A DNA stretch of 37,020 nucleotides from a virus, in IMG/VR virus record IMGVR_UViG_3300036670_000156, positions 1 through 37,020 of that record, one strand, 5' to 3'. The position numbers and the translations under genes are program-made. The number at the start of each line of letters is the position of its first letter. Position 1 is the stretch's first letter. The notes under the pieces are model-generated. The model made no database searches. It was given only the letters and a program-made list of their open reading frames with translations, and had not been told where the DNA came from. Below, piece by piece: positions 2,218 to 36,554 of the stretch.

Positions 2218-2655
2218 CTATGCTCTCCTTGTATTATCTCTCAGTGCCGTGGTCAACCAAGACCCGGCATCGAGCGAGGAGCCGTCGGCGCAGGATAAGC
2301 CACGCAATATCATCATATCGAGCTTCTCGTCCAATCGCTCGTGGTGCCTTCCAGATACGAGGTAAGCGTGATGCTCCACTTCGAGAAGGAAATGTACGGG
2401 CACCAAGTGGTGGCGCTGACTGATCCACTGGTGTTGCGATGGCTCGATCTTGAATGCCGCAGACTTGGTGCCGGTTAACCGGCTGGCGGCCGCTTTAAGC
2501 TCTAGCCACCCGGTCTCGTACCCAGGCTGGCGCATCACGTAGGATGCATCCGGGACACCGGGACATACCGCCCCGTCCTCGTGCCACGACAGCAGTAGGA
2601 ACGGAGCCAGACGCGGCGCGATCCGGTGCCTGAAGGATAGCTCAACCTTGTTCAT
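2218..2655 (-). CDS. PD-(D/E)xK (VRR-NUC-like) endonuclease
   Basis: This 145-residue protein has the arrangement of small phage PD-(D/E)xK nucleases. P35-D36 is followed about 15 residues later by E52-L-K54, then a conserved-looking Q74-H-Q-W77. Related phage proteins are thought to act as structure-specific nucleases in replication or recombination. The start overlaps the end of datZ by 14 bp. The stop codon sits inside the ribosome binding region of the VirE gene, so the two are probably translated in coupling. The specific substrate is not predictable. How such an enzyme handles Z-containing DNA is an open question in this context. Confidence 0.72.
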   Translation of the reverse strand: MNKVELSFRHRIAPRLAPFLLLSWHEDGAVCPGVPDASYVMRQPGYETGWLELKAAASRLTGTKSAAFKIEPSQHQWISQRHHLVPVHFLLEVEHHAYLVSGRHHERLDEKLDMMILRGLSCADGSSLDAGSWLTTALRDNTRRA

Positions 2656-3196
2656 ATGCGTAGAAAATCACCCAGTTGAGGACGTGTTCGGCGATCAATT
2701 CGGGCCAGACTCCCCGCGCCTCATCGCCCTTCTTACCCATCTGGACGGCCAAGCCCTCTTGCGCATGTTCTGCGGTAATATCTACGCCATGAATCCGAAT
2801 GAATCGGATACCGTCCGCCAGATCGCAAAGCTTCACCAGCAGTTCCGCCCCCGGCGGCCATCCAGTGTACCACAGAGCGGGCAGCGTGTCACGTTCCGCC
2901 TCTTCGACGCCCGATAATCTGCGTTTGGTGTGGCTCGGAATGTCACCTGTGAATACCTCCGCCATATCGTGGAAGAGCGCGCAAGGCAAGATATCGGCGG
3001 CAGGTCCAAAGTAACCGCCGGGCGCTGTCTTGGCGATACCGTAGGCCAACGCCCCCACATTCGCTGAGTGTTCAGCCAGACTCTGAATTCGGGTGGTGTC
3101 GATCATGTGCCAGCGTTTCACGGCAGCAAAGCGCATGACGGTCTCTACTTCCGCCCTATCGATCCCGTAGGCATAATGGTCCAGTTTACTTGACAT
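2642..3196 (-). CDS. datZ: DatZ-like HD-domain dATP triphosphohydrolase
   Basis: This 184-residue HD phosphohydrolase has metal ligands at H43 (AEHSAN), H76-D77 (LFHDMAE) and D125 (CDLAD). Length and layout match DatZ of cyanophage S-2L and the wider YfbR-like 5'-deoxynucleotidase group. In Z-genome phages DatZ strips triphosphate from dATP, draining the dATP pool so that dZTP is used instead. The assignment rests on the fold plus adjacency to mazZ and purZ. By itself the sequence could also be a YfbR-like dNMP phosphatase. The gene overlaps mazZ by 11 bp and the nuclease gene by 14 bp, indicating one polycistronic message. Confidence 0.85.
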   Translation of the reverse strand: MSSKLDHYAYGIDRAEVETVMRFAAVKRWHMIDTTRIQSLAEHSANVGALAYGIAKTAPGGYFGPAADILPCALFHDMAEVFTGDIPSHTKRRLSGVEEAERDTLPALWYTGWPPGAELLVKLCDLADGIRFIRIHGVDITAEHAQEGLAVQMGKKGDEARGVWPELIAEHVLNWVIFYAYEQG

Positions 3197-3482
3197 GCTT
3201 CATCACTCCCAGTTCCGATTGCAACCAGACGCGGGCGTCATTGACCGCCATCTTGCGACGGATGCATTCCTCGATCGAGAAGCGCTTGCGAGCACCGTAG
3301 TCCAGTAGCATGATCATTGCGTCCGCATATTCGGTCTCGTCGGTCGGCGCATCAATGAGTTCACCGATCTCGCTATAGAGCTTCAAGAACATAGATGCGT
3401 CGGTACGCTTCGGGAACAGGTGATCGGCCTGCCTACGTACTTCCAGGGCCAGGATATCGATACTTTGCGCGGCGTCTTTCAT
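3186..3482 (-). CDS. mazZ: MazZ-like (d)GTP pyrophosphohydrolase of the MazG family
   Basis: This 98-residue all-alpha NTP pyrophosphohydrolase has the family metal-binding pattern E38-x2-E41 followed by E51-x2-D54. It is a single MazG-type domain with no extension. In the Z pathway MazZ hydrolyses GTP/dGTP to the monophosphate, supplying dGMP, the PurZ substrate. The ATG overlaps the purZ stop codon (ATGA), so translation should be coupled. As an isolated gene it would only be called a MazG-like enzyme. The specific name depends on its position between purZ and datZ. Confidence 0.85.
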   Translation of the reverse strand: MKDAAQSIDILALEVRRQADHLFPKRTDASMFLKLYSEIGELIDAPTDETEYADAMIMLLDYGARKRFSIEECIRRKMAVNDARVWLQSELGVMKHVK

Positions 3483-4528
3483 TTTGCGATCCTTTTAACA
3501 TCCGCATCATCAGGGCCGTAGCCGACCCACACCACTTTGGGCCGATTGACTTTGGTTAGCGTTTGTTCGTTGATCCGTGCGATCAGGGCGGTGACTTCGT
3601 GCGGCTCGATATAATTCACGAAGTTCAGGAAGATCTGGGTCTCCCAATAGTGACCGCAATGGAATAATGCGTCGTCCAATTGCTGGTGGCTGAATGAGAA
3701 AATCCGCCGCTGGAGCTTGGTCACGGTCGTGACTTCAGGCTGTGGGATACGCTTGAGGTCCGCCCATTCGAGTTCCTCTTGGTCCGGGTAGCACGGACCG
3801 CTGGAGCCATCGCGATTATTCACCCGGATCGGCAATGTCCGCAATGCCGCCATAATCTGAATTCGGCTAGCCCACTTGAATGGTAGGCCGCAATCAGCAG
3901 CGATCTGCCAAGGCGTGACGTCGCGACTGGTGGTATAGGGATATGCGCCATGGTACATCGAAAGCCCGAACCCCTGTGCGCCCTCGATAATGATGTTTTC
4001 GGACTCTTGGAGCGCCCCGTCGTACTCCGCCATGGTCACAACATACTGATTCAGTACGGTATCCCGGAAGCGACATACGGCGGTGTTCGGGTCATCGACG
4101 CGGCGCATGATTCTTTCGATCGCTGCCGCGCCCACGCCCTTCGCGGTGGACCCGATCTTGGTCATACCACCTGCCACCTCTTGAATCGCGTGGTAATCGG
4201 CGACCACTGCAGCATGAGGATGGATCATAAGACGTTTACCCTCCATCAGATCGCTGTATCTGTCCAGTTCGCCGATCAGGGTCTTGGCGTGGATCAGCGA
4301 TCCGGGGCCAAGCATCACGGTTTTGATGGTCGGGGAACAGATCGCCGTAGGCAGCTGCTGGGTCATCATGTGGATGCCCCGCGCCTTATTGATATAGGTG
4401 TGGCCCGCGTTAGTCGCGAACGAACATACGGCGGTGTCGTAATGAAAACGAACGGCCAGATACCCGGCCAGCAAGCCCTTGCCCGTACTGCCGTACTGCA
4501 AGTCGATAATCATGTGTGCGGTATGCAT
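3479..4528 (-). CDS. purZ: PurZ, aminodeoxyadenylosuccinate synthetase
   Basis: This 349-residue adenylosuccinate synthetase homologue is shorter than cellular PurA (about 430). The N-terminal loop reads GSTGKG (residues 13-18), where PurA has GDEGKG. The catalytic Asp of PurA is therefore Ser14, while Lys17, Asn40 and His43 (NAGHT) are kept. As I recall it, phiVC8 PurZ has the same IDLQ-G-STGKGL-AGYLA pattern. PurZ joins L-aspartate to dGMP using a nucleoside triphosphate, giving N6-succino-2-amino-dAMP, which host PurB converts to dZMP. A GAGGA ribosome site precedes ATG 4528. The gene lies 10 bp after dpoZ. This is the diagnostic gene for a 2-aminoadenine genome. Confidence 0.95.
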   Translation of the reverse strand: MHTAHMIIDLQYGSTGKGLLAGYLAVRFHYDTAVCSFATNAGHTYINKARGIHMMTQQLPTAICSPTIKTVMLGPGSLIHAKTLIGELDRYSDLMEGKRLMIHPHAAVVADYHAIQEVAGGMTKIGSTAKGVGAAAIERIMRRVDDPNTAVCRFRDTVLNQYVVTMAEYDGALQESENIIIEGAQGFGLSMYHGAYPYTTSRDVTPWQIAADCGLPFKWASRIQIMAALRTLPIRVNNRDGSSGPCYPDQEELEWADLKRIPQPEVTTVTKLQRRIFSFSHQQLDDALFHCGHYWETQIFLNFVNYIEPHEVTALIARINEQTLTKVNRPKVVWVGYGPDDADVKRIAK

Positions 4529-4538
4529 TTATATGTCC

Positions 4539-6392
4539 TCAGTTTTTGCTAGCTTCGAACCAATTGATGCCACTATCACCCGAAGCGGTGATCGGCACTC
4601 TTATTCTGACCCATGCGGTATCTGAATTGAAATCTGTATATTCCTTAAGTATGATGCCTCGGGTGTCCCCTTCCCCATTGACCGACACACCGATCTCATC
4701 ATGGCAAGACATCATCAGCCGTGCCGGTAGCTTGAATTCGCGGATCGCGGCGTCCGTCCGGATCAGTCCGATTTTGTGTAGATCGGCAGCATAAGCTTGG
4801 TAGAGCAGTCCAGCTGCTTTGTGTTCCCCATGATCCGGGAACCGAAGCCTGCGACCAGTCAGCGTACGTACGAATCCCTTGGACTTGGCCACGCTCTCGG
4901 CATGCTTCATGAACGATTTGACGCCCGGTAGCTTCGTGTGATACAGGTCGAATATGCGTTTCGCGTCATCGCCCGGCAGGTAGCACATCCGCCCCCGGTA
5001 CTCGCTGATCTCGTAATCCATACCCATCATGAACGACAGCTTCCCAGCACCAGCGCCGAATGCCAGCCCCAGGTTAATCTGCTTCGTGTTCGGTGCGCCT
5101 GCGTACAGCGGATTGCGCGGGATACCGGTCATGTCAGACACGATCTGGTGGTAATCCATTGCCGGATTAGCCTTGTATGCGCTGATGATCGCCGGGTCAT
5201 TGATCAAATGTGCAGCCATCCGAAAGTCTACCTGGGAATAGTCGGCGCAGAACCATTCGTCACCTGCGTCGGGGAGAAACATCGCCCGTAGGATCGCAGC
5301 ATTGTTTTTATCTCGCTTGGTGATCTGTTGAAGCGCCGGATCGACCGATGAGAGACGCCCCGTAATTGTCCCGGTGTCAGCGTCGCTTCGAGTCTGGTTA
5401 AATTGAGTGTGGACGTACCCACTCCCATCAGCACTACCGATAATGTGGCCACGGATGAAAGTGTCCCGTAGCTTGATCGTCTTACGAAGATTGCGTACTT
5501 TCTCAGCCAGCGGGTGTTTGATTTCTCGGAGCGCATCTTGTCCAAGAGACGGTCCCTTTCCGCCCTTAGTCGGTCCCACGAGTGTGCCATCTATTAATCT
5601 CCATTGGTATTTGTTAACTGGCTCGGGCTGGAAGAACTCACGCATCTGCTTAGGCGAGTTCACGAAGGTCGATGCGTCCTTGCAGCCGGTGATATCGACG
5701 ATTTCTTTCGCGTAGACTCTCTCCTTTTCATCGAGCAGCGGAATGGCTGCGTGGGCGGCTTCCAGGTCCACACGGACTCCGCCCCAAGACATATCGGCCA
5801 ATACCGGCAGCAGCTTCATCTCGACGTCCAACACGTTCTCAAGCTCCTGCCCCTGTATCTGCTTACACTGCTTCTGGTATATGTCGAAGCAGATCCGGGC
5901 ATCCGAGGCACCATAGGCCGCGACCAGATCACGAGGCGCGTCCCGTAGGCCGGAGAGTATGTCGGTGCGCCGGGTCAGACCCATGGCGGCACCGATCGCG
6001 GCCAGTAGCGCTTCTTTATCGGACTGCACCGCGTTGGCGGTGGCCACGCTGTCGAGCTTGTAACTGAAATGGTGTTCGTTGATCAAACACTCGGCGACCA
6101 TCGTGCAATACCACTCGACCGATCGAGGATCGATTCCGAACGTCCGGGTAGACTGGTATTCGAATTGGGCGTTATGGGCGATCACCTTTTTACCGGGCAG
6201 CAGGTCACGCAACCAATGAGCGAGACCGGGCGTATCCCTGATATCGAAATACCATTCGGCGTCGTGTGTCGCCACTGCGACGCCGAAGACGTTGAAGTCG
6301 GGCATCCAATACTTCAGCCCAGTGGTTTCATAATCCAGCGCGACGATCCGAGCTTCGATCCTGGGCAGCGACATAGATATTCCAGCATTCAT
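4539..6392 (-). CDS. dpoZ: DpoZ-like family A DNA polymerase with 3'-5' exonuclease
   Basis: This 617-residue PolA-type replicase has an exonuclease domain with D20-x-E22 (Exo I), H73-N-x2-F-E78 (Exo II) and Y160-x3-D164 (Exo III). The polymerase domain has motif A around D384 (ADYSQVDFR), motif B at K437-x3-L-x3-F445-G and motif C H564-D-E566. All proofreading and polymerase carboxylates appear intact. DpoZ enzymes of Z-phages prefer dZTP over dATP, and adjacency to purZ supports that role. The nearest in-frame upstream stop is 15 bp before ATG 6392. ATG 6374 is an alternative. Neither has a strong ribosome site, so coupling to the small upstream ORF at 6328-6501 is likely. Confidence 0.9.
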   Translation of the reverse strand: MNAGISMSLPRIEARIVALDYETTGLKYWMPDFNVFGVAVATHDAEWYFDIRDTPGLAHWLRDLLPGKKVIAHNAQFEYQSTRTFGIDPRSVEWYCTMVAECLINEHHFSYKLDSVATANAVQSDKEALLAAIGAAMGLTRRTDILSGLRDAPRDLVAAYGASDARICFDIYQKQCKQIQGQELENVLDVEMKLLPVLADMSWGGVRVDLEAAHAAIPLLDEKERVYAKEIVDITGCKDASTFVNSPKQMREFFQPEPVNKYQWRLIDGTLVGPTKGGKGPSLGQDALREIKHPLAEKVRNLRKTIKLRDTFIRGHIIGSADGSGYVHTQFNQTRSDADTGTITGRLSSVDPALQQITKRDKNNAAILRAMFLPDAGDEWFCADYSQVDFRMAAHLINDPAIISAYKANPAMDYHQIVSDMTGIPRNPLYAGAPNTKQINLGLAFGAGAGKLSFMMGMDYEISEYRGRMCYLPGDDAKRIFDLYHTKLPGVKSFMKHAESVAKSKGFVRTLTGRRLRFPDHGEHKAAGLLYQAYAADLHKIGLIRTDAAIREFKLPARLMMSCHDEIGVSVNGEGDTRGIILKEYTDFNSDTAWVRIRVPITASGDSGINWFEASKN

Positions 6393-6501
6393 TGGGGGAC
6401 TTAGCTACTATTAGGATATTGGAGTCGATCGTCAGGGACCAGAGGCTCGCGACCATCTTGAAGTGAAAAGGTGTCTTCCGAGGAAGACCTGCATTGACCA
6501 T
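6328..6501 (-). CDS. Small ORF overlapping the dpoZ start (possible translational leader)
   Basis: This 57-residue frame begins at ATG 6501 seven bases after a strong GGAGAG site and ends at TGA 6328, overlapping the first 65 bases of dpoZ in another frame. It follows directly after a rho-independent terminator. I do not recognise the product (it starts MVNAGLPRKTPFHFKMV). Because dpoZ has only weak ribosome sites of its own, the likely use is to bring ribosomes to the polymerase start by coupling. It could also be a real small protein, or chance. Confidence 0.45.
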   Translation of the reverse strand: MVNAGLPRKTPFHFKMVASLWSLTIDSNILIVAKSPNECWNIYVAAQDRSSDRRAGL

Positions 6502-6517
6502 ATGTCTCTCCTGCTTG

Positions 6518-6548
6518 AAAAAAGCCCCCGGATTTATGGTCCGGGGGC
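6518..6548 (-). terminator. Rho-independent terminator between the putative SSB gene and dpoZ
   Basis: On the minus strand a perfect 9-bp GC-rich stem (GCCCCCGGA paired with TCCGGGGGC) with a 7-base loop is followed by six T residues. It would reduce transcription from the 6601-7368 gene into the polymerase/Z cassette. It may set the ratio between an abundant binding protein and the replication enzymes. Confidence 0.88.
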
Positions 6549-6553
6549 AAGAA

Positions 6554-6590
6554 GCGCTGGGCGGGCAACTGCTTTCGGCAGAGCCCAGCG
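6554..6590. other. Compound hairpin just downstream of the 6601-7368 gene
   Basis: Arms GCGCTGGGC (6554-6562) and GCCCAGCGC (6582-6590) pair perfectly over 9 bp. The loop contains a further small stem (CTGC/GCAG). No T-run follows on either strand, so it is not a classical terminator. It may protect the 3' end of the upstream message, or act together with the terminator at 6518-6548. Confidence 0.7.
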
Positions 6591-6600
6591 CCTAGGAGAA

Positions 6601-7368
6601 TCAGATAGAATCGGTCTGGTGGCCCGCTGTGGTGGTTTCGCCTGGGGCATCATGGCTGGCTCGTACGACCTGACCATCAGCGCCGGAGAACATCGCGTAC
6701 TGCTTCTCAGCCTCGCGGTACAACGCTTCTGGCGGGAAACCGGCGGGCTGGACCACGTAATTGTAGAACGTCTTGTTCTGCTTGTTCTTGTCTTTAAAGC
6801 TCGTGACCTTGTAGACGCGGCTAAAACGATCGCCCCCGGCGATCTGGATCATCGCGTTCCATTTGCGGGAGACCTTGGCCTTGGACTTGGGCATCGAAAT
6901 AACGATCTGTTCAAGCGACATGTCCGCTGCCACTCGCAGGCAGTAATGGACGGGGGTGTCCACCACTTCCAGCAGGTCCGGATCTTCGCCTGCTGCCACG
7001 AGCTTACGTACTTGGTCGTCGGCCAGATCCTGGTGATCGTAGGACCCATGGAAGCCACCACCGGCGTCTTGGTCCTTCCAGACCAAATACTCCATACGGT
7101 AGTAAACCGGGATCACGAACACCGTGTCGCCCAACACCTCTTGCGTGACCGTGTTGAACATCAGGCCTTCTTTGGCGTCCTCGTTCTCGTCCTTGATCGG
7201 CGACTGCGCCTGCACCAATTCGAGTCGAGGGATCACAATGTCCTTGGTACCGACATTCTCAGAGCCACGACCCTGACCGCCCTTCGCCCACTCAGGAACT
7301 TCTTCGGAAAATCCGAGTGCGTTCACGTTGGATACTGCTGCGATTTCGTTTTTGCTTTTGGTAGCCAT
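6601..7368 (-). CDS. Putative single-stranded DNA-binding-like phage protein
   Basis: This 255-residue acidic protein has a Gly/Glu-rich N-terminus, a central beta-rich part and an ill-defined C-terminal tail. It resembles phage proteins sometimes annotated as ssDNA-binding or recombination accessory proteins (the segment IPRLELVQAQSP is characteristic), but I cannot assign the fold with certainty. Position supports the idea: it lies just upstream of the polymerase and is followed by a terminator that would make it more abundant than the enzymes below. ATG 7368 has AAGGA at good spacing. ATG 7374, two codons upstream, sits too close to it. Confidence 0.55.
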   Translation of the reverse strand: MATKSKNEIAAVSNVNALGFSEEVPEWAKGGQGRGSENVGTKDIVIPRLELVQAQSPIKDENEDAKEGLMFNTVTQEVLGDTVFVIPVYYRMEYLVWKDQDAGGGFHGSYDHQDLADDQVRKLVAAGEDPDLLEVVDTPVHYCLRVAADMSLEQIVISMPKSKAKVSRKWNAMIQIAGGDRFSRVYKVTSFKDKNKQNKTFYNYVVQPAGFPPEALYREAEKQYAMFSGADGQVVRASHDAPGETTTAGHQTDSI

Positions 7369-7443
7369 TTTCATTTCCTTGGATTAGGGCGTTTAAAAAT
7401 CCGACTGCTGTGCCCGTAAACAGGATAGCCGGAGAGGGAGAAA

Positions 7444-7857
7444 TCAGGACTTGATGATCGACGCACGTTGGAACGGCGTTACGGTGAACAGGTGGTCGGG
7501 AATCGGCGCACCTTCTTTGATCATGCGGCGGAACAGCGCCTTCAAGCTCGACGCGTTGTATCCCTCGGTGATCATATTGGCGTAACCGCAATCACGCAAC
7601 CAGACCATGGCCTCATCTTTCATACCGGCAGCGGTGGATGCATAGACGTCCGACGCCAATTGGACCCTGCCGATACCATCATAACTCACGTTCTTGATCT
7701 CCATCTGCTCCATGGCTTCCGGGATTTCATACAAACGCAGACCGTCGAGACGCTTCTTCAAGGGCTTCAGCGTCTCTTCACGGGACTCGATTTCCGCTTC
7801 CAGGTCGCGCATCTCTGTGACGAGCTTCAGCAGCGGATTGCTCGATTTATCGTTCAT
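7444..7857 (-). CDS. Conserved phage protein with N-terminal coiled coil
   Basis: This protein has 137 residues. Residues 8-50 are charged and heptad-like (EMRDLEAEIESREETLKPLK), predicting a coiled coil. The rest is a compact mixed domain ending in a basic helix and VTPFQRASI. Its ATG overlaps the stop of the preceding gene (ATGA). It sits between the SNF2 helicase and the putative SSB, so a replication or recombination accessory role is plausible. I do not recognise a named family. Confidence 0.7.
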   Translation of the reverse strand: MNDKSSNPLLKLVTEMRDLEAEIESREETLKPLKKRLDGLRLYEIPEAMEQMEIKNVSYDGIGRVQLASDVYASTAAGMKDEAMVWLRDCGYANMITEGYNASSLKALFRRMIKEGAPIPDHLFTVTPFQRASIIKS

Positions 7858-8237
7858 TTCGTATTCCTATAGACTATTGCGGAAAATGCCTTTTCGGGCG
7901 AGAACTCGATATAACGTCCCTGCTCACGGCGCCATACGAGGATTTTGGGGCTTGCGGACTGGGCCGCCCTGCCCACGATGATGCCAACCAAGAAGATGGC
8001 CAACGGCGACCCGGTGAGAATAATGAAATCCTCCGATGGGTCGTAGCTTGCGAGAAACGCGCTGATCGCTTTCGACCACTGAGTAGCCACGGTCGACTGG
8101 GCGTGAAGCGGCAGATCAAACTCGGTGATGAACTCCAATTCGCCGAACACCATCGCCGGAGTGTAGTCCATGGCCGACGCTCCATTATCGCTGCGGCGGA
8201 CTTGCTCTTTAATAACCCATACTTTTGGTTTAGTCAT
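7854..8237 (-). CDS. Hypothetical protein in the replication block
   Basis: This 127-residue protein starts at ATG 8237 (MTKPKVWV). An upstream GTG at 8261 in frame is less likely because the ATG has AGAGAT at suitable spacing. The C-terminal half contains a nucleotide/regulatory-like pattern, FIILTGSPLAIFLVGIIVG then KILVWRREQGRYI, similar in layout to phage proteins that report a value on a host or phage factor, but no catalytic motif is clear. It lies 52 bp after the helicase and overlaps the next gene by 4 bp. Function unknown. Confidence 0.65.
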   Translation of the reverse strand: MTKPKVWVIKEQVRRSDNGASAMDYTPAMVFGELEFITEFDLPLHAQSTVATQWSKAISAFLASYDPSEDFIILTGSPLAIFLVGIIVGRAAQSASPKILVWRREQGRYIEFSPEKAFSAIVYRNTK

Positions 8238-8288
8238 GATAATCTCTATATGTCGATACACGAGTATACCACACCTCGGCGGCTGGCG

Positions 8289-10025
8289 CTACCCCACTTC
8301 ACCCATCAGCAAGTCATCGATTTGCTTCCCTTCTTCTATCTTGCGCTTGAAGAACTGGTCCAAGTCGGTCTTTTCGGCGATTGAAGCGGCGATCGCCTCG
8401 TCCAACGTGTTCTCCATGATCAGGTCGATTACCAGACAAGTATGCTTCTGGCCAATCCGGTGGCTCCTGTCCTCGGACTGCATCCGGTCGATATAGGCGA
8501 ATGTACCCGAATAGTAGATCATCACGTCCTCTTCACCTGATACCAGCGTAAGTCCCAGGCCAGCCGCCGCCGGGTTGCCGACGAAGAAACGGGCGTCTGG
8601 GTCATTGCAGTACCGCTCCTCCGCTGCCGTCCTATCCACGTCCGATACCGCCCCGTAATAGCTCAGCACGGATTTCGTCCCATACTTGGTTCGAAGGGCA
8701 TAGATAATCATCTCCAATTCGGGTACGAATCTGGACCAGATCACGAACTTGGATTCGCCCACATGCTCTTCGATCACGTCCATCATCGCATCGAATTTCG
8801 GATTCGAGTCGAGCGGAATGGTCTGGGTACTGCCATTATCGAGCAGAATGGGCTGACTCCCACCGATTACCTGCTGCAGTCGCAGATCGCGCTCAAGTAC
8901 ATTACTGACCTTAATCGCTGGATTATCGCCCTTACCCTTGATGATCTGCTTGAATAACGATCGCTGTTCCGGTGTGGCCTCCACATAGATCTGCTTGTAG
9001 ACCTTCGGCGGCAGATCCAGCACCGATTTCGGTACCGATAGCGTATACGGATTCACCAGCGCTAGTAACTCCTCTACGAATTGGTAGCCGACGATCTTCT
9101 TCGCCTCGTATCCGCCCATCACCAAATACCGGGTCTTGAATGCCCAATAATCGCCCGATCCGATGATATTCGGGTCCAGGAACTCGTATTGCGGCCACAG
9201 ATTACCGACCTGCTTATTGATGGGCGTACCATTCAGGAAGACTCGCCAATCGGATTGCGCGTGACCGAAATTGATCGTGCGCTCGGTGCGGATCGCCTTG
9301 TAGTTCGCAATCTTGCTCGACTCATCAACGACCGTCATATGCTTACCCACCCGGTTTAGGTAGAATGCACACACGGTATCGTAGTACTTGGTACTGACTC
9401 CCAGGCCTTCGACTCCGACCAGGAGCACGTGCAGCTTTTGCGGGTCTTCAGCCATCCAATCCGCTAGCTGCGCACTCTTGCCCGACTGAATACGGCGAAT
9501 CAGGTACTTGTCCGGGTCCGCGTACTTCGCGAATTCTTTCCGCCACGTGTTCGCCAGATTCTTGAGTGTAATGATGGTCAGGCGTCGCAGGCCTTCGGTC
9601 GCGTGTCTAGCCATAGCCAGATTAATGGTCACGAAAGTCTTGCCTGTTCCCATTGCGGCGATCAGCGCATAAGAATCGAGATTCCATCCGAAATCCAGCA
9701 TCTTCCACTGGTGGTCGTACGGTTGATAGGTCACCCGATGGTCGAACCAGTCGCGGGGGAACTGCTTGTAGGTCACCGGCACGAGCAGCGCCTCATAATT
9801 CAGGATGGCCTCCAGGGCTTCGGGCGTAAATTCGAAGGCATACCGACCACGGATATCGTTCAAGTGTCCGATGTTCTGCCTCGATAATGGGCATTTCCAC
9901 TTCTTCGATTTCGGGTCGAAACGTCTGGACGGGAATGCGCGTAGGACGTCCGACGCCCAGAACGGTGCCGCGAACGTCAACCGCCTCAGCTTCTCCTCAT
10001 ACCCGACTTGTATTTTATCAGTCAT
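8289..10025 (-). CDS. SNF2/SF2-type DNA helicase-like ATPase
   Basis: This 578-residue protein has Walker A MGTGKT (residues 125-130), a DESS motif II (234-237), a motif III-like FLNGTPI and the C-terminal motif VI QSEDRSHRIGQ, all typical of phage SNF2-like superfamily 2 enzymes. Residues 1-100 form a small N-terminal region found before the helicase core in many phages. It likely translocates on dsDNA during replication or recombination. The ATG overlaps the upstream stop codon (ATGA at 10022-10025), so it is translationally coupled to the small zinc-binding protein gene. Confidence 0.9.
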   Translation of the reverse strand: MTDKIQVGYEEKLRRLTFAAPFWASDVLRAFPSRRFDPKSKKWKCPLSRQNIGHLNDIRGRYAFEFTPEALEAILNYEALLVPVTYKQFPRDWFDHRVTYQPYDHQWKMLDFGWNLDSYALIAAMGTGKTFVTINLAMARHATEGLRRLTIITLKNLANTWRKEFAKYADPDKYLIRRIQSGKSAQLADWMAEDPQKLHVLLVGVEGLGVSTKYYDTVCAFYLNRVGKHMTVVDESSKIANYKAIRTERTINFGHAQSDWRVFLNGTPINKQVGNLWPQYEFLDPNIIGSGDYWAFKTRYLVMGGYEAKKIVGYQFVEELLALVNPYTLSVPKSVLDLPPKVYKQIYVEATPEQRSLFKQIIKGKGDNPAIKVSNVLERDLRLQQVIGGSQPILLDNGSTQTIPLDSNPKFDAMMDVIEEHVGESKFVIWSRFVPELEMIIYALRTKYGTKSVLSYYGAVSDVDRTAAEERYCNDPDARFFVGNPAAAGLGLTLVSGEEDVMIYYSGTFAYIDRMQSEDRSHRIGQKHTCLVIDLIMENTLDEAIAASIAEKTDLDQFFKRKIEEGKQIDDLLMGEVG

Positions 10026-11277: not shown

Positions 11278-11958
11278 TTACCTTAGGACCGCTGCGGCGC
11301 TGTGGCCGATCTGGACCTGCTCGGTAATGCGGGCGCACAAGATGCGCAGCTCTTTTTCCTGGGTATCCCTTGCGGCGGCCCATGCGGCCCCTGCTGCGTC
11401 CCATGACGAGGCACTTGCGACGGCACTTGCGGAGGCACTTGCTGCGGCACTTGCTGCGGCACTTGCTGCGGCACTTGCTGCGTCCCATGATGAGGCACTT
11501 GCTGCGGCTCTTGCGGAGGCACTTGCGGAGGCACTTGCGGAGGCACTTGCGGAGGCACTTGCGGCGGCTCTTGCGACTGCCCCTGCGTCCCTTGCGGCGT
11601 CCCTTGCGGCGTCCCTTGCGGCGGCCAATGCGGCGGCCCCTGCGGCGGCCAGATCTTTCTCGCTCGCTTTGCGAATGGCGAAGCGTAGTGCAACATCGAG
11701 CGAAGCAATTGATCGCGGGTCTTTCATCAGGTGTTGCACCTGGCGGGCACACCAAACTGCATATAGCCGGATCTCGCGGTCGTGGCCGCTGACGGCGCGC
11801 AAGCACCACAGCGCGTCATCGAGTCCGTTTGCGTCGATGATTGTGACGATGGCCAGCGGCTCGTTGTCGGCCCCGGTCTTGCCCAAATGCTTGAGCAATT
11901 TCGCCCAGCCGTCGCGGCATGGCGAGTGCTCCCTGATTATTTCCAAAGTCGTGTTCAT
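11278..11958 (-). CDS. Phage protein with long Ala/Ser/Asp repeat region
   Basis: This 226-residue protein has three parts. Residues 1-100 are a conserved globular domain (WAKLLKHLGKT; DDALWCLRAVSGHDREIRLYA; CARQVQHLMKDPRS). Residues 103-205 are almost only Ala, Ser, Arg and Asp with occasional Trp-Asp (AARDAARDA, ASSWDAA). The C-terminus ends QVQIGHSAAAVLR. The same layout is common in phage hypothetical proteins. The low-complexity part should form a long helix or helical repeat. Two other frames remain open across it, because the DNA is built from 12-base tandem repeats, but only this frame has the known N-terminal domain and an ATG coupled to the upstream stop. Confidence 0.8.
   Translation of the reverse strand: MNTTLEIIREHSPCRDGWAKLLKHLGKTGADNEPLAIVTIIDANGLDDALWCLRAVSGHDREIRLYAVWCARQVQHLMKDPRSIASLDVALRFAIRKASEKDLAAAGAAALAAARDAARDAARDAGAVARAAASASASASASASASASARAAASASSWDAASAAASAAASAAASASASAVASASSWDAAGAAWAAARDTQEKELRILCARITEQVQIGHSAAAVLR
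11294..11320. repeat. 27-bp repeat shared with the 12059-12562 gene, copy 1
   Basis: These 27 bases, beginning GCGGCGCTGTGGCC, are identical to 12420-12446. Both are read on the minus strand in frame and encode the core of QVQIGHSAA. In this gene it is near the C-terminus. Confidence 0.88.
11383..11660. repeat. 12-bp tandem repeat array inside the alanine-rich gene
   Basis: The plus strand shows repeated GGAGGCACTTGC and GCGGCACTTGCT units and variants, plus scattered CTTGCGGCGTCC units. Because the unit is a multiple of three, copy-number change keeps the reading frame, so the encoded Ala/Ser tract can expand or contract. It is not a CRISPR array: there are no spacers. Confidence 0.85.
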
Positions 11959-12642: not shown

Positions 12643-13629
12643 TCAGGCCGACTCGGATTCGAATAAGTCCTGCGTATCTGCAGCGGCGACGGCGACGGCG
12701 ACCACCATGTAATGGGCGTCGCGCACCTCGATCACACGCCCGATGGTGATAGCTTCACCGGCTGGGGTCTGGGCATTACGGCGGATCGCACCACGCAATC
12801 GGTTACGCAGATTCATGCTCTGCTGCCCCTGGTTCAGCTGTGAGTACGGGTTCTCGGCCAGACCCAGCACCTCTTTGAGCAGCGGGACCATGTTCGGCAC
12901 CGACACCACCTCCAGCGCCAGCGCCAATTCGTCGGTCGTGCGCATCTGACCATTCGTGCCCTTGACGTACGAGCCTGCGATCACACGCTGACGAAGGGCG
13001 TCGGCCATACCGACCTGGGCCGATGCTGCACCACCTGCAGCGATCCGAGCGGCGACCTTCTCAGCCTTCGCATCATCACGCTCGGCCAGTGCCTTGAGTC
13101 GCATGACGGCTTTCGCATCATCACGTTCGGCCTTGGCCAGTTCCTTGGCAAGCACTTTGTCGGCCTTCTCGGCGGCTTTCAGCGCTGCGGTCTTTTCGGC
13201 TAACGCCTTCTTGGATGCTGCGACTTCCAGCTTTTCTTCGGGGGTCATGTCGGACATTTTGGTCTTTCGGGGTTCGGTCAGGGATTGTGACAGCGCATCC
13301 ATCGCGCCGTCACCAGACGATTGTACCACGCGGGCAGCGTCGTCGTCAATACCCATTACAGGCGGCAGATCGTCTTGCACGACTAGCTTCGACCGCTTCA
13401 CGCGGGCTGTGGGTTCGGCTTCGACCACCGACCGCTTGAACATGTGAAACGGGTCTTTGAACACGGCTGGTGTCATGCCTTCTTCGGCGGCTTCGGGCTT
13501 ACGGGACTTTGCTTTCATTATCTCTCTCCAGGGTTTTACGACGAACGTATTGTTCGGACTCAGCAGAATATCGCGGGCGGACCTGAGCAGGGCGTCCTCC
13601 ACGCGATCGGGGTGATTACGATTGGTCAT
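12643..13629 (-). CDS. Coiled-coil protein with C-terminal GQQSMNLRN domain
   Basis: This 328-residue protein starts at ATG 13629 overlapping the methyltransferase stop (ATGA). A second in-frame ATG at 13518 has a much better site (GGAGAGAG), so a 291-residue form is possible. Residues 125-200 are a highly charged Ala/Lys/Glu/Asp coiled coil. Residues 205-290 form a globular domain (SYVKGTNGQMRTTDEL, LGLAENPYSQLNQGQQSMNLRNRLR). The same domain is present in the 15317-16003 gene, so the two are paralogues. A DNA-binding or regulatory role is a guess. Confidence 0.75.
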   Translation of the reverse strand: MTNRNHPDRVEDALLRSARDILLSPNNTFVVKPWREIMKAKSRKPEAAEEGMTPAVFKDPFHMFKRSVVEAEPTARVKRSKLVVQDDLPPVMGIDDDAARVVQSSGDGAMDALSQSLTEPRKTKMSDMTPEEKLEVAASKKALAEKTAALKAAEKADKVLAKELAKAERDDAKAVMRLKALAERDDAKAEKVAARIAAGGAASAQVGMADALRQRVIAGSYVKGTNGQMRTTDELALALEVVSVPNMVPLLKEVLGLAENPYSQLNQGQQSMNLRNRLRGAIRRNAQTPAGEAITIGRVIEVRDAHYMVVAVAVAAADTQDLFESESA

Positions 13630-14144
13630 ATGAATTCCAAAATCGCAGGACGATGATTCTCCTTATTGAATACATACCAAACATGATTGAACTGGCTATT
13701 GATCTCACCGTAATGAGTCCGGATTCTTAGCCTTTTTACCAAGATGATCGCCTTTTCTAAGTGGCCTGAAGTCATTAAAGGCCTCCGAGACGCAGAGGTC
13801 ATGAATCCGATAGGTAGCAGCATATATACCTTACCAGACGTCAACTTTAATGCGTGTTCTACAAATTCCAAACCCATCGAAAAAGGTGGATTTGTGACTA
13901 TATCGCACTCAACGTGCTCATGGTAACCGAAAAAATCGTTCCCTGAAGTAATGTCCGTGGATTTAACACAGTGATGGTGTGCTTCCAATACCTTGGAAAT
14001 ATCCATTTCACCGCAAGCAGGCTCCCAGATGTCTCGGGAGAGCGTTACTCGACTCAGTAACGCTATAGTAGCAGACTCCGGTGTCGGGTAAAAATCCATC
14101 GGGTGCCTGTCTCGGACAGATGAATTCCCAGCGATTCTTGTCAT
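13626..14144 (-). CDS. Class I SAM-dependent DNA methyltransferase (NPPF type)
   Basis: This 172-residue protein has a motif I-like segment EPACG (41-45) and catalytic motif IV DIVTNPPF with N85-P-P-F88. That is the signature of amino-methylating enzymes (N6-adenine or N4-cytosine). The start DFYPTPESA and the end in a short beta-strand match small phage methyltransferases. No target-recognition domain is visible. The ATG overlaps the upstream stop. The DNA is visibly more AT-rich than its neighbours, suggesting separate acquisition. In a genome where adenine may be replaced by 2,6-diaminopurine, the target base is an interesting question. Confidence 0.82.
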   Translation of the reverse strand: MTRIAGNSSVRDRHPMDFYPTPESATIALLSRVTLSRDIWEPACGEMDISKVLEAHHHCVKSTDITSGNDFFGYHEHVECDIVTNPPFSMGLEFVEHALKLTSGKVYMLLPIGFMTSASRRPLMTSGHLEKAIILVKRLRIRTHYGEINSQFNHVWYVFNKENHRPAILEFI

Positions 14145-15316: not shown

Positions 15317-16003
15317 TCAGGCGGTGGGCTGTGCGGCGAGACCACTGAGTACCTCTGGCGTCATTCCGATCAATGCGCCTGGTGTTACGAAGCCATTCCG
15401 GATGGCGTGGCGCAGGCGATTACGCAGATTCATGCTCTGCTGGCCTGGATTCAGCGTCAGATATGGATTACCGGGCAGCCCCAGCAGGATTACGCAAACC
15501 CGGATAACGTCGGGGCGAGCCATCGCGCTGAATGCCTGACCGATCAGGTCGCCGTTATGCGGGTTGCCATTCGCGCCCTTCACGTAGGCTTTGCGGGCGG
15601 CGACCAGCGCGAGCATCGGACCAACGTACTTGCACTTCTTCTCGGTCGTGTCCAGGTGATCGGCCACATACAGCTCGATCGCGGCGGCATCCAGACCCAG
15701 GCTGGCGGCATCGGCGCGGATCGCGGCCTCGTACACGGCGGTCGTGTCGGGCTTCGCCGTTTCACGTGGAACGTCTGGCGTCTGAGTCAAGACTGGTTCG
15801 GGCTCTCGGTGCTCGTGATCATAGGTCGCGGCATCTGCGCGGATCGCCGCCTCGAACGCTGCCGCGTCAGCATCCTTGTCTGTCTTCGCGTCGCGAAGGG
15901 CCTTGCGGCTAGCCGCCTTCCGGGCCTTATCGGCTGCCGCATTCGCGGCGACGGTGGCTGCGTCTTTATTCAGGGCTTTCACTGGCTTACGTGCTGCTGT
16001 CAT
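15317..16003 (-). CDS. First gene of the leftward unit; paralogue of the 12643-13629 protein
   Basis: This 228-residue protein has an Ala/Lys/Asp-rich helical N-terminus in which a short motif is duplicated (FEAAIRADAA and YEAAIRADAA). The C-terminal domain is about 100 residues (KAYVKGANGNPHNGDL, LGLPGNPYLTLNPGQQSMNLRNRLRHAIR). That domain is clearly related to the one in the 12643-13629 protein. The gene is read from promoter copy 3 and starts at ATG 16003 after AGGAGTCC. A parS-like site lies within its coding sequence. Being first expressed suggests an early regulatory or DNA-organising role, which is inference. Confidence 0.75.
   Translation of the reverse strand: MTAARKPVKALNKDAATVAANAAADKARKAASRKALRDAKTDKDADAAAFEAAIRADAATYDHEHREPEPVLTQTPDVPRETAKPDTTAVYEAAIRADAASLGLDAAAIELYVADHLDTTEKKCKYVGPMLALVAARKAYVKGANGNPHNGDLIGQAFSAMARPDVIRVCVILLGLPGNPYLTLNPGQQSMNLRNRLRHAIRNGFVTPGALIGMTPEVLSGLAAQPTA
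15759..15772. promoter_or_regulatory. parS-like site 2 (GTTTCACGTGGAAC)
   Basis: Identical 14-bp copy inside the first leftward gene, where the minus strand encodes V-P-R-E-T. See the findings for the set of three. Confidence 0.6.
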
Positions 16004-16965: not shown

Positions 16966-16994
16966 TTGACTCCGGTACCTGCTCGTGGTATAAT
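16966..16994 (+). promoter_or_regulatory. Strong rightward promoter for the terminase/late unit
   Basis: TTGACT (16966-16971), a 17-bp spacer and perfect TATAAT (16989-16994). Transcription should begin about 17001, which is the terminase small subunit ATG, so the message appears leaderless. Confidence 0.9.
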
Positions 16995-17000
16995 CGTCGC

Positions 17001-17471
17001 ATGGATCTACGCCCCCTCAACCCGACGGTTATAACGGATGCCCTGGTATTAGTGGATGACGTCCAGCCGCTGCCGCCGCTTTCGGTCGACGAGGACTCCT
17101 TCGCCCTGGCCGTGATCGAATGTAGTGGTAACGTCGCCGCCGCGCACCGGATGGTATATGGTGATTCATACACTTCGCCGGGGGCGAGGGGACGCATGCT
17201 CCTGCAGAAACCCCAGATCGCGGCGCGGATCGAGGAGTTAACGGGCGCGATCAAGGAGACGACGTTCATATCGATCGGTACGCATTTGCAGGAACTCGCG
17301 GTGATCCGGGATCTCGCGAAGGCGCAGGGGCAGATTAAAGTGGCGCTCACCGCCGAACGGGCACGGGGCGAAGTGGTGGGGCTTTATAACCGGTTTGAAC
17401 ACGGCGATAAGACGGCAGGCCCGGTGCTGGTGCAGATCAATCTCGTGAGCAAGTATGACGCTGATATATGA
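17001..17471 (+). CDS. terS: Terminase small subunit
   Basis: This 156-residue protein directly precedes the large terminase and overlaps it by 4 bp (ATGA). Residues 33-80 contain a helix-turn-helix-like region (ALAVIECSGNVAAAHRMVYGD, then a stretch ending LLQKPQIAARIEEL), as in DNA-recognising terminase small subunits. The protein should bind the packaging start site, which in headful phages often lies in or near this gene. The start codon coincides with the predicted transcription start and has no ribosome site, so leaderless translation is likely unless a GTG inside the frame is used. Confidence 0.8.
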   Translation: MDLRPLNPTVITDALVLVDDVQPLPPLSVDEDSFALAVIECSGNVAAAHRMVYGDSYTSPGARGRMLLQKPQIAARIEELTGAIKETTFISIGTHLQELAVIRDLAKAQGQIKVALTAERARGEVVGLYNRFEHGDKTAGPVLVQINLVSKYDADI

Positions 17472-18811
17472 GTGAATTTCAACTGACTGAGCGGCAGGAA
17501 GCGGCGATGGCGGTGCTGTCGGGACCGGCCACACACGGAATGCTCTACGGCGGGTCGCGTTCGGGCAAGACATTCCTACTGACTCGTAACGTCGTGCTTC
17601 GCGCTATGAAGGCCCGGCGTTCGCGCCACGCGATTTTGCGTTTCCGCTTCAACCACATCAAAGCGTCGATCATCCTGGATACGTTCCCGAAGGTCATGGA
17701 AATCTGCTTTCCGGGTGTCGAATACGTGCTATCCAAGACGGACTGGTTCGCAGCACTCCCGAACGGTTCCGAAATCTGGTTCGGCGGGTTGGATGACAAG
17801 GACCGGACCGAGAAGATTCTGGGGCAAGAGTACGCGACCATCTACTTCAACGAGTGTTCGCAGATCCCACATAGTTCACGGGCGATCGCCATTACCCGAC
17901 TCGCGCAATTGGCTGAGACCACGCCAGGCAATTTCCTCGTGCCTCGTGCGTTCTACGACATGAACCCGACCGACAAGATCCATTGGGCGTACAAGTCGTT
18001 CGTGCAGAAAGTCGATCCGGAGACGAAGAATCCGATCCACGACCCTGAGAATTATGTGTCTTTCCGGATCAATCCCGAAGACAATATGCAGAACCTGAGT
18101 GCGAACTACCTGGATACGCTGAAATCCCTGAGTCCACGGTTGCAGAAGCGTTTCCTACGCGGTGAATTCAGCGATGGTACGCCCAACGCGTTGTTCAAGG
18201 ACGAGACGATCGAGACTTGGCGGGTGGTGAACGGCGATATCCCGGATCTGGTTCGCGTTCTCGTGGCAGTCGACCCTTCGGGTTCAGGGGATGATGCCGG
18301 GTCTGATGCCGATGCTATCGGGATTGTGGTTACCGGGCTGGGTACAGACGGGAACGCATACGTACTCGAAGACCTGACGGTGAAGGCGGGGCCAGCGACG
18401 TGGGGAAGGGTAGCGGTCGATGCCTATATCCGCCACGAGGCCGATGCGGTGGTAGGCGAGGCGAACTATGGTGGTGCGATGGTCCAACACGTGATCCGTA
18501 CCGCTGCTGCTGCCCGGAACGCCCGTGTCAATTACCGGAAAGTTACCGCGACCCGTGGTAAAGTGGTCCGCGCCGAACCGATATCCGCATTGTACGAGCA
18601 GGGTAAGGTACGGCACGTTGGCTACTTCGTCGATATGGAAGACGAGCTATCCGGATTCACCACGAATGGATTCGTCGGCGAGAGTTCGCCCAACCGCGCT
18701 GATGCCCTGATTTGGGGTATCAGCGAACTGTTCCCTGCCCTCGTGTCGCCCAATAAGCCGGGCGCTCACGATTCAGTAATCATCATGCCATCCGAACACC
18801 GCTGGCGCTAA
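17468..18811 (+). CDS. terL: Terminase large subunit
   Basis: This 447-residue packaging motor has ATPase Walker A GGSRSGKT (residues 28-35) and Walker B/catalytic glutamate ATIYFNE (E129). The C-terminal RNase H-like nuclease has likely metal ligands D269 (VAVDPSG), E331 (GEANYGG) and D412 (NRADALIWG). All core motifs are present and the length is normal for the family. With the portal it drives DNA into the prohead and cuts concatemers. The P22-like neighbourhood suggests headful packaging, consistent with the circular contig. It would have to act on Z-containing DNA if the Z cassette is functional. Confidence 0.95.
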   Translation: MSEFQLTERQEAAMAVLSGPATHGMLYGGSRSGKTFLLTRNVVLRAMKARRSRHAILRFRFNHIKASIILDTFPKVMEICFPGVEYVLSKTDWFAALPNGSEIWFGGLDDKDRTEKILGQEYATIYFNECSQIPHSSRAIAITRLAQLAETTPGNFLVPRAFYDMNPTDKIHWAYKSFVQKVDPETKNPIHDPENYVSFRINPEDNMQNLSANYLDTLKSLSPRLQKRFLRGEFSDGTPNALFKDETIETWRVVNGDIPDLVRVLVAVDPSGSGDDAGSDADAIGIVVTGLGTDGNAYVLEDLTVKAGPATWGRVAVDAYIRHEADAVVGEANYGGAMVQHVIRTAAAARNARVNYRKVTATRGKVVRAEPISALYEQGKVRHVGYFVDMEDELSGFTTNGFVGESSPNRADALIWGISELFPALVSPNKPGAHDSVIIMPSEHRWR

Positions 18812-18821
18812 AGGAATCATA

Positions 18822-20876
18822 ATGGCAAGAACATCTCGCGATCAACGTTTGGCGGATGTGCACCAGGAGGCGCTGATCGAATTCGACCAGATCCAGTCCG
18901 CGATGCGCGACGAGCGACTACAATGTCTGCAGGATCGCCGGTTCTACTCCATCGCCGGAGCACAATGGGAAGGCCCGCTGGGCGAGCAGTTCGAGAACAA
19001 GCCCAAGTTCGAAGTGAACAAGATCGCGCTCTCTGTTCAGCGCATCTTCACTGAATACCGCAATAACCGCATAACCGTCGACTTCGTGAGCAAGACCGGC
19101 GAGAAGGGCGATCGCCTTTCGGAAGTCTGCGATGGCTTGTATCGCGCCGACGAGCAGGATAGTGTCGCGAACGAGGCGTACGATAACGCATTCGAGGAGG
19201 CGGTCGGCGGCGGATTCGGCGCGTGGCGGCTCAGGACCAGCTACGAGGACGAGGAAGATCCGGAGGATGACCGTCAACGTATCCGGATCGAGCCTATTTT
19301 CGATGCCGATTCGTCCGTGTTCTTCGATCTGGAGGCCAAGCGGCAGGACAAAGCGGATGCCAAGCGGTGTTTCGTCATCTACAGTATGACGCCCGATTCG
19401 TACCGCGAAACGTTCAACGATGATCCGGCCACGTGGCCGAAAGAGGTACACCAGCACGAATTCGATTGGGCAGCGCCCGATGTCGTCTACGTGGCCGAAT
19501 ACTATCGGGTCGAGGAAGTCGCCGAAACGATCCGCATTTTCCAGGCGATCGACGGATCTGAGGAACGTTACAGCGCGGATGAGATCGACGAGGCCATGGA
19601 ACTGCAGTTAAGCGCGGTCGGCACTGTCGAAGTCCGCCAGAAGCGGATTAAGCGCCGCCGCGTTCGGATGTACGTGCTCTCGGGTTCCAAGATCTTGGAG
19701 GACAACGGATTCATCGCGGGCAAGAATATCCCGATCATCCCGGTCTACGGCAAGCGCTGGTTCATCGACAACATCGAACGTTGTATGGGTCACGTCCGTA
19801 TGGCGAAAGACGCGCAACGGCTGGCTAATATGCAGCGCTCCAAGCTCGCGGAAATCTCGGCGTTATCCAGTGTCGAGAAGCCAATCATGACGCCGGAGCA
19901 AGTCGCGGGCCATCAGGATATGTGGTCGAATGACAATCTCCGGAACTACCCGTACCTGCTCCTGAACCCCATCACGGGCGCTGACGGGTCTATGTCCCCC
20001 GCCCCTCCTCTCGGCTACACGAGGGCACCGTCCGTGCCTCCGTCGATGGCAGCGCTGCTGCAGATATCCGAGCAGGACATCCGCGACGTGCTGGGGAACC
20101 AGGAGCAGGGCGACAAGATCGTCAGCAACATTTCGGGTCGGGTCGTTGAGATGGTGCAGCAGCGCCTCGACATGCAGACGTTCTTGTATGTATCTAATAT
20201 GTCGAAGGCGATCCGTCGGTGTGGTGAAATCTGGCTGAGTATGGCCAAAGAAGTGTACGTCGAACCCAAGCGCAAGATGAAGGCGATCAGCCCCCTGAAC
20301 CTGATGAGTTCGGTGGAACTATCGCGCCCGACCATCGACGAGAACACCGGAGCACTGAAAGTCGAAAACGACCTTTCGGACGCGCATTTGGATGTCACGG
20401 TCGATGTCGGCCCATCATTCTCCAGTCAGCGGGCCGGAATCGTACGGGCACTTACCGGTATGATGGCGATCACCCAAGACCCGGAAGCTCAGCAGGTTCT
20501 GCAGTCGGTGGCGATCATGAATATGGAAGGCGAAGGTCTTGCCGATGTTCGCAAGTTCTTCCGCAAGAAGATGGTCCAAGCTGGGGTTATCGAGCCTACC
20601 GACGAGGAAGCAGCAGCAATGCAAGCCGCGATGGAGAACCAGCAACCGGATCCGAATGCGGTGTTCTTGCAGGCCGCAGCGGAAGAAGCTACCGCGAAGG
20701 CAGCTGGCGCACGGGCTGGCGTACTCAAGACGGTCGCCGATGCCGAACTGGCACGGGCGAAGACGGTCGAGACCTTGGCCAGCGTCGATCAAGAGGCACA
20801 GAGGATCGCCCTTGAATCCGCGCAAGCGATCAGCGGGATGTTGCAAGACGCCGCCGAACCCGTCACCGGGATGTAA
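18822..20876 (+). CDS. Portal protein, P22 type
   Basis: This 684-residue protein is close in length to P22 gp1 (725). The N-terminal region (QWEGPLGEQFENKPKFEVNKIALSV pattern) is typical of P22-like portals. It forms the dodecameric ring through which DNA enters and leaves. The C-terminal 100 residues are Ala/Gln/Glu-rich and helical (AAAMQAAMENQQ, AEEATAKAAGARAG), as in the barrel of P22 portal. AAAGGAATCATA precedes ATG 18822. It lies 10 bp after the terminase, in the usual order. Confidence 0.93.
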   Translation: MARTSRDQRLADVHQEALIEFDQIQSAMRDERLQCLQDRRFYSIAGAQWEGPLGEQFENKPKFEVNKIALSVQRIFTEYRNNRITVDFVSKTGEKGDRLSEVCDGLYRADEQDSVANEAYDNAFEEAVGGGFGAWRLRTSYEDEEDPEDDRQRIRIEPIFDADSSVFFDLEAKRQDKADAKRCFVIYSMTPDSYRETFNDDPATWPKEVHQHEFDWAAPDVVYVAEYYRVEEVAETIRIFQAIDGSEERYSADEIDEAMELQLSAVGTVEVRQKRIKRRRVRMYVLSGSKILEDNGFIAGKNIPIIPVYGKRWFIDNIERCMGHVRMAKDAQRLANMQRSKLAEISALSSVEKPIMTPEQVAGHQDMWSNDNLRNYPYLLLNPITGADGSMSPAPPLGYTRAPSVPPSMAALLQISEQDIRDVLGNQEQGDKIVSNISGRVVEMVQQRLDMQTFLYVSNMSKAIRRCGEIWLSMAKEVYVEPKRKMKAISPLNLMSSVELSRPTIDENTGALKVENDLSDAHLDVTVDVGPSFSSQRAGIVRALTGMMAITQDPEAQQVLQSVAIMNMEGEGLADVRKFFRKKMVQAGVIEPTDEEAAAMQAAMENQQPDPNAVFLQAAAEEATAKAAGARAGVLKTVADAELARAKTVETLASVDQEAQRIALESAQAISGMLQDAAEPVTGM

Positions 20877-23464: not shown

Positions 23465-23629
23465 ATGGCAACAGGCAAGAACACTTTCGGGTCGAACATC
23501 GCGAAAGCGAAGCGGGCCGGTAAGACGCAGAAGGAAGCGGTATCCACCGCGATCAAGACCGCCAGCAGGCCTATGCCTTCTCGTGGTGGGCGCACAGCCA
23601 AGAATAAGGCGAGTCGAGGAATGAAATGA
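23465..23629 (+). CDS. Small basic protein after the coat gene (54 aa)
   Basis: ATG 23465 follows CCGGAGAATTCT. 54 residues, rich in Lys, Arg, Ala and Gly (starts MATGKNTFGSNIAKAKRAGK, ends ASRGMK). The stop overlaps the next gene start (ATGA at 23626-23629), confirming that it is translated. In composition it resembles the 21811-21960 protein. A DNA-binding or minor head role is possible, without direct evidence. Confidence 0.72.
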   Translation: MATGKNTFGSNIAKAKRAGKTQKEAVSTAIKTASRPMPSRGGRTAKNKASRGMK

Positions 23630-36530: not shown

Positions 36531-36554
36531 TTATTTCATCGACTCGCGGCTGAA
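36531..36554. repeat. 24-bp direct repeat flanking the Acb2-like gene, copy 2
   Basis: The original location: it encodes the C-terminus and stop codon of the VirE-type gene. With copy 1 it brackets the 462-bp segment carrying the Acb2-like gene. Confidence 0.9.

Follow-up and report, generated by a model that had tools for sequence, protein, structure and literature searches.

Phages that carry 2,6-diaminopurine (Z) in place of adenine form at least seven groups among the NCBI viruses of June 2022, in a survey whose text mentions neither P22 nor metagenomes (PMC12884076). In Z-phages, DatZ and MazZ are co-conserved with PurZ (PMC8342488). Here we describe a viral contig of 37,020 nucleotides (IMG/VR record IMGVR_UViG_3300036670_000156, positions 1 to 37,020; the whole stretch is called the window), in which this co-conservation also holds. 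On the (-) strand it carries a Z cassette in the order dpoZ, purZ, mazZ, datZ, followed by a nuclease-like gene and then by a primase-polymerase with a VapE domain (PrimPol-VapE). The two ends of the window share a direct repeat of 135 base pairs (bp) with one mismatch, and we therefore regard the window as close to a complete genome. It very probably represents a short-tailed phage of the P22 type, whose genome is essentially complete here and whose replication module is predicted to make Z-DNA. The Z chemistry is known, while the lineage and the combination of modules appear to be new; no earlier report of Z-DNA or PurZ in P22-like phages was found in the literature searched, which covered few subscription papers.

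Among the described systems, phiVC8 (Enhodamvirus, Vibrio) and ZP6 (Mareflavirus, Alteromonas) resemble the window in being short-tailed Z-phages (for the window as judged from its genes) and in encoding an SF2/SNF2 helicase, Pam3 gp33/gp34-like proteins, DpoZ, PurZ, a MazG-like protein, DatZ and a small nuclease in a similar overall order. The identity to the window is 35-36% for DpoZ and 38-43% for PurZ. Their MazG-like gene is of the MazZ-2 (phiVC8-like) kind, whereas the window has the MazZ-1 (S-2L-like) kind distinguished from it (PMC8342488), and neither phage has a match to the P22 portal, coat or terminase. The primase of phiVC8 and ZP6 is a PrimPol-DUF5906, as it is in BUCT555, and is encoded between dpoZ and purZ, whereas that of the window is of another type and comes after the cassette. 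Cyanophage S-2L shares the unfused MazZ-1 (39% identical), DatZ (31%), PurZ (41%) and a PrimPol with a VapE domain, but it is a siphovirus without DpoZ and has its PrimPol away from the Z cluster; the 32% identity between the two PrimPol proteins covers the VapE part only. SH-Ab 15497 (Acinetobacter), PMBT28 (Salmonella) and PSA28 (Pseudomonas) have DpoZ, PurZ, a DUF550-type MazZ and DatZ in the order of the window, but with a small gene between dpoZ and purZ, a large N-terminal fusion on MazZ and a helicase that precedes dpoZ (UvrD/PcrA-type in SH-Ab and PMBT28). The P22-like phages (Lederbergvirus, Sf6, APSE; nearest portals MW202867 and MW202475) share the portal, scaffold, coat, gp4, gp7 and gp10-type genes but have other replication genes. 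Among the genomes compared, only this lineage combines DpoZ with a MazZ-1 of the S-2L kind and an AEP-VapE primase encoded right behind the cassette.

A sequence-only reading of the same DNA had proposed a full Z gene set, and the coordinates, strand, order and spacing it gave for the four open reading frames (ORFs) agree with ours. We identified each of the proteins individually and found the catalytic and diagnostic residues kept. That reading also called the combination of a P22-type virion, a Z cassette and a VirE-type replication protein unusual. The joining of P22 virion and Z cassette is indeed the new part, and it recurs in independent contigs; the VirE/VapE protein is not, as the C-terminal region of the S-2L PrimPol is already described as VirE-like (PMC8065100).

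With the NCBIfam PurZ model NF038379 (curated cutoff 300 bits), the window PurZ scored 295 bits (E 5.5e-88), and with ordinary PurA models 145 bits or less. It matched phrog_1211 ('2-aminooxy adenylosuccinate synthetase', E 8.7e-71) in PHROG, and among solved structures the PurZ of phiVC8 (6fko, E 6e-73) and of S-2L (7odx, 1e-62) came ahead of all PurA. Ser14 occupies the position of the PurA catalytic Asp, where 147 of 147 phage PurZ have Ser (PMC12884076), and the T-K-x-D guanine-recognition loop of PurA is replaced in the same way as in other phage PurZ. Grouping of PurZ with ordinary PurA had been named as a result that would speak against a Z cassette; since the tree placed the window with phage PurZ, in a group excluding PurZ0 and PurA with support 89/84, this objection does not apply. 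The PurZ0 subgroup (Wayne/Ghobes-like) is recognised by PurZ0 grouping together with dutZ/dmtZ genes. The window PurZ stood apart from the Moki/Frizzle PurZ0 pair in the tree, and no dUTPase or NDT gene was present among the window proteins identified by family matches.

DpoZ scored 775 bits with its NCBIfam model (NF038380, cutoff 500), and its best match in the PDB was the phiVC8 DpoZ (7pbk, E 4e-93; Klenow 4e-35). The residues given as characteristic of DpoZ (L455, F459 and G548 in phiVC8 numbering; PMC8599892) are kept as L441, F445 and G528. The active-site loop insertions 1-3 are all present, with insertion 3 shorter, and motif C is the ordinary HDE, not HDS. MazZ gave a single match to solved structures, which was the S-2L MazZ (PDB 7ody, E 6e-11), as well as matches to Pfam PF04447 (E 3e-5) and, by tblastn, to S-2L, PSA28 and SH-Ab (E 1e-6 to 1e-10); its acidic set E38, E41, E51 and D54 is invariant in the alignment. 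DatZ matched phrog_7076 ('dATP triphosphohydrolase', E 5e-22), and its profile, the rows of which included S-2L DatZ, found the S-2L structure 6zpa at E 4e-53 and YfbR at 8e-18. The protein keeps every metal and phosphate ligand that is known from S-2L DatZ (R19, H34, H66, D67, E70, D75, K81, K116 and D119; PMC8065100), and W20 as well.

Several observations weigh against a functional Z cassette. The PurZ score lies 5 bits below the NCBI curated cutoff. In DpoZ, residue 78 is Glu where the phiVC8 exonuclease motif has Asp (D85); Glu is found here in the window and most of the lineage and Asp in two members, and proofreading may differ with this residue. DatZ has M31 at S-2L I22, the residue excluding the 2-amino group, and H89 at S-2L P79; the Met is shared with ZP6, the His occurs in most of the lineage, and both positions are variable among known DatZ. 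The support comes from sequence, and the phage is known from contigs. That the genes have decayed or been repurposed, as homologues of ordinary PurA, PolA, MazG and YfbR, would accord with the PurZ score and with the matches of DatZ to YfbR families as well, but we consider this very unlikely in view of the far lower scores of the ordinary models, the PDB ranking, Ser14, the tree position and the co-conservation of the genes.

Two DpoZ searches of IMG/VR for relatives of this cassette recovered 21 contigs whose DpoZ is 60-68% identical to that of the window (for example IMGVR_UViG_3300016665_000507 and IMGVR_UViG_3300044655_002016). Twenty were distinct, L133 and L134 being identical across the module. 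PurZ alone as a query of viral contigs gave no match. The contigs show full module synteny with the window: dpoZ, purZ and mazZ have the same order in all 21 and the order extends through datZ in 20. The nuclease-like gene and a PrimPol-VapE homologue (53-67% identical) follow at the same location in 19, the remaining two contigs ending near there. The SNF2-like helicase and three Pam3-like genes precede the cassette in those contigs that reach that far, and the PurZ motif GSTGKG, with its Ser, is found in 21 of 21. The genes dpoZ, purZ and mazZ are under strong purifying selection (ratio of nonsynonymous to synonymous substitution rates 0.03-0.06 for the closest contig pairs). In maximum-likelihood trees with 13 sampled Z-phages, the window and seven contigs formed their own clade (support 100/100 for DpoZ and 96/100 for PurZ), which adjoins, but lies outside, the phiVC8/ZP6/BUCT555/Bm1 and SH-Ab/PMBT28 groups. 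All Z-phage DpoZ together excluded the polymerase of the non-Z phage Ab19 (support 95/94). The genomes searched, from 84,980 species of bacteria and archaea, contained no relative of DpoZ, and a prophage or host link was thus not obtained.

Apart from host PurB and kinases, every known component of the Z-DNA pathway is predicted in the window. Based on work on homologues (PMC8342488, PMC8065100, PMC8599892, PMC12884076), MazZ would convert dGTP to dGMP, PurZ would join dGMP and aspartate to dSMP, and host PurB and nucleotide kinases would take dSMP to dZTP. DatZ would destroy dATP and spare dZTP, and DpoZ would place Z opposite T in preference to A. The AEP-VapE protein would prime and unwind, with the SNF2-like helicase and the nuclease completing the replicon, and the packaged genome, with Z for A, would resist A-reading nucleases of the host. 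It is from the characterised homologues that we expect these catalytic activities, a reliance on host enzymes and Z in the virion DNA. Substitution of A by Z might also be partial, or the cassette might mainly adjust the nucleotide pool, with a non-discriminating AEP-VapE doing much of the synthesis; the S-2L PrimPol accepts A no less readily than Z (PMC8065100), and the window too has an AEP-type enzyme beside the cassette. We regard this as improbable, because the window encodes DatZ, which would remove dATP, and an intact DpoZ that is conserved and strongly constrained by purifying selection, and because S-2L reaches full replacement despite its non-selective polymerase (PMC8065100).

Judged from its genes, the virion is P22-like (podoviral), as the sequence-only reading had supposed. 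The portal, scaffold, coat, gp4-, gp7-, gp10- and gp16-type genes all had PHROG matches (Table 1), and the portal is 69% identical to that of MW202867 ('P22 like portal'). Relatives of the portal are scattered over genomes and metagenome-assembled genomes (Acinetobacter, Pandoraea, Novosphingobium, Paraburkholderia and others), which do not settle the host. P22-type head genes had no match in the six known Z-phages compared over whole genomes (phiVC8, ZP6, K300, BUCT555, OspP_OH and S-2L), and purZ was not found in the P22-portal relatives MW202867, MW202475 or PfAn1. Among 48 related P22 portal records, many of them fragments, purZ was present in one, G004. Such rarity is what a chimeric assembly of a Z module and a P22 module from different viruses would give, but 11 of the 21 related contigs have a P22-type coat (PF11651 over cutoff), and we regard such an assembly as excluded. 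G004, G059 and G064 independently link the Z cassette to a portal 65-83% identical to that of the window (coat E about 1e-89), G004 has the replication and virion blocks in the same circular order, and the terminal repeat joins both window ends inside one gene, the primase-polymerase gene, which spans the repeat. At least two long contigs, G005 and G007, belong to other families in their terminase and portal, so that the Z module changes virions. Together with the lack of purZ in most P22 portal relatives, they indicate that Z and virion modules have been exchanged, in agreement with the horizontal transfer argued for Z genes (PMC12884076).

Table 1. Predicted genes of the replication and virion modules in the window
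Gene or product	Position	Strand	Matches and remarks
AEP/LigD-type primase-polymerase with VapE (VirE) helicase-like domain	3-2216 and 36531-36885	(-)	PF05272 E 3e-66; PF21686 E 3e-6
nuclease-like gene	2218-2655	(-)	phrog_2165 E 2e-11; VRR-NUC/PD-(D/E)xK-like by inspection; overlaps datZ
datZ	2642-3196	(-)	184 amino acids; predicted HD-domain dATP triphosphohydrolase; 14-bp overlap with nuclease-like gene
mazZ	3186-3482	(-)	98 amino acids; predicted S-2L-type (MazZ-1), unfused MazG/DUF550-like (d)GTP pyrophosphohydrolase; 11-bp overlap with datZ
purZ	3479-4528	(-)	349 amino acids; predicted N6-succino-2-amino-2'-deoxyadenylate synthetase; 4-bp overlap (ATGA) with mazZ
dpoZ	4539-6392	(-)	617 amino acids; predicted aminoadenine-preferring family A DNA polymerase with 3'-5' exonuclease domain; 10 bp before purZ
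Pam3 gp34-like replication-module protein	6601-7374	(-)	PF23977 E 2e-61; homologues in phiVC8, ZP6, BUCT555 and the new lineage
Pam3 gp33-like gene	7444-7857	(-)	PF23984 E 5e-29; conserved in lineage
Pam3 gp32-like gene	7854-8261	(-)	PF23992 E 2e-15; conserved in lineage
SNF2-like DNA helicase	8289-10025	(-)	PF00176 E 1e-18; phrog_62 E 5e-91; opens replication module; conserved in lineage
terminase small and large subunits	17001-18811	(+)	phrog_51 E 1e-5; phrog_979 E 3e-67
P22-type portal	18822-20876	(+)	phrog_156 E 2e-136
P22-type scaffold	20931-21809	(+)	phrog_648 E 2e-54
P22-type coat	22140-23417	(+)	phrog_283 E 2e-71
P22 gp4-like adaptor	23626-24108	(+)	phrog_637 E 4e-33
gp10-like head-closure/stabilisation protein	24589-25992	(+)	phrog_578 E 8e-93
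gp7-like DNA-ejection protein	27531-28178	(+)	phrog_598 E 6e-36
protein within DNA-ejection set, between gp7- and gp16-like genes	28178-29542	(+)	function unassigned
gp16-like DNA-ejection protein	29539-32049	(+)	phrog_770 E 2e-53
tailspike, pectate-lyase-like	32053-33963	(+)	PF12708 E 2e-18

PrimPol-VapE has its AEP and VapE domains in one chain, the match of the AEP part (PF21686) being just at the cutoff. A predicted structure of this protein (mean predicted local distance difference test score 52) was uninformative on specificity and was set aside. Burkholderia phage Bm1 (L110, 67.5 kb) also has a Z cassette, with DatZ, a DUF550-like gene, PurZ and DpoZ at 3817-7749; a tRNA-Met lies immediately upstream of its dpoZ.

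A 17-bp site, ATACCGCTCGTCGGATC, occurs in six (+)-strand copies with 0-1 mismatch (14475, 14766, 16073, 16104, 16126 and 16235; 0.2 expected), and a seventh copy at 6108 has 3 mismatches. Three copies lie inside repeats of about 84 bp (14409, 14699 and 16007), which on the (-) strand show TTGTGC-17-TATAAT, or a near match, and AGGAG directly before early genes. These repeats probably serve as early promoters that have an operator in common. At 16966-16994, directly in front of the terminase genes, TTGACT-17-TATAAT with a TG preceding the -10 element is a probable late or head-gene promoter. Two paralogous (-)-strand genes (12643-13629 and 15317-16003) have a common C-terminal LNPGQQSMNLRNRLR stretch and are retained next to the Z module in the majority of related contigs, and a 12-bp tandem repeat array (11358-11679) lies within a doubtful basic ORF.

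The window also has a small DNA methyltransferase-like gene (13626-14144, (-) strand; phrog_799 E 2e-42, NPPF motif, 45% G+C) for which the related contigs gave no counterpart. With an N6-adenine specificity, it would raise the question of its substrate in a Z genome; the Z-phage K300 has a Dam-type gene too (PF05869; L109:29689-30225). Among six-base palindromes, those consisting solely of G and C are strongly avoided in the window (29 against 118 expected, with neither CCCGGG nor CCGCGG present), and those containing A/T are near normal (482 seen, 582 expected). The Z contigs as a group differed in this avoidance from non-Z P22 kin (Mann-Whitney p 0.0006), with the relatives not being independent. 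The avoidance would fit a shielding of A-containing restriction sites by Z, and it is seen in several known Z-phages. As it is absent from S-2L but strong in the non-Z phage Ab19, and as the relatives are not independent, we did not count it as evidence.

With this finding, the few groups that use a non-standard genetic alphabet gain an apparently separate, uncultured lineage, in which the Z module stays intact while the surrounding virion genes are exchanged. It is possible, and we put it forward tentatively, that this is an additional, environmentally widespread Z-phage lineage in which the block from the SNF2-like helicase to AEP-VapE is a self-contained Z-DNA replicon, with a Z-adapted primase, moving between P22-like and other virion types. 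The window would place Z-DNA in a P22-type particle, with its well-studied packaging and ejection system, and would make it possible to study the way in which headful packaging, ejection and priming handle the more stable Z:T DNA.

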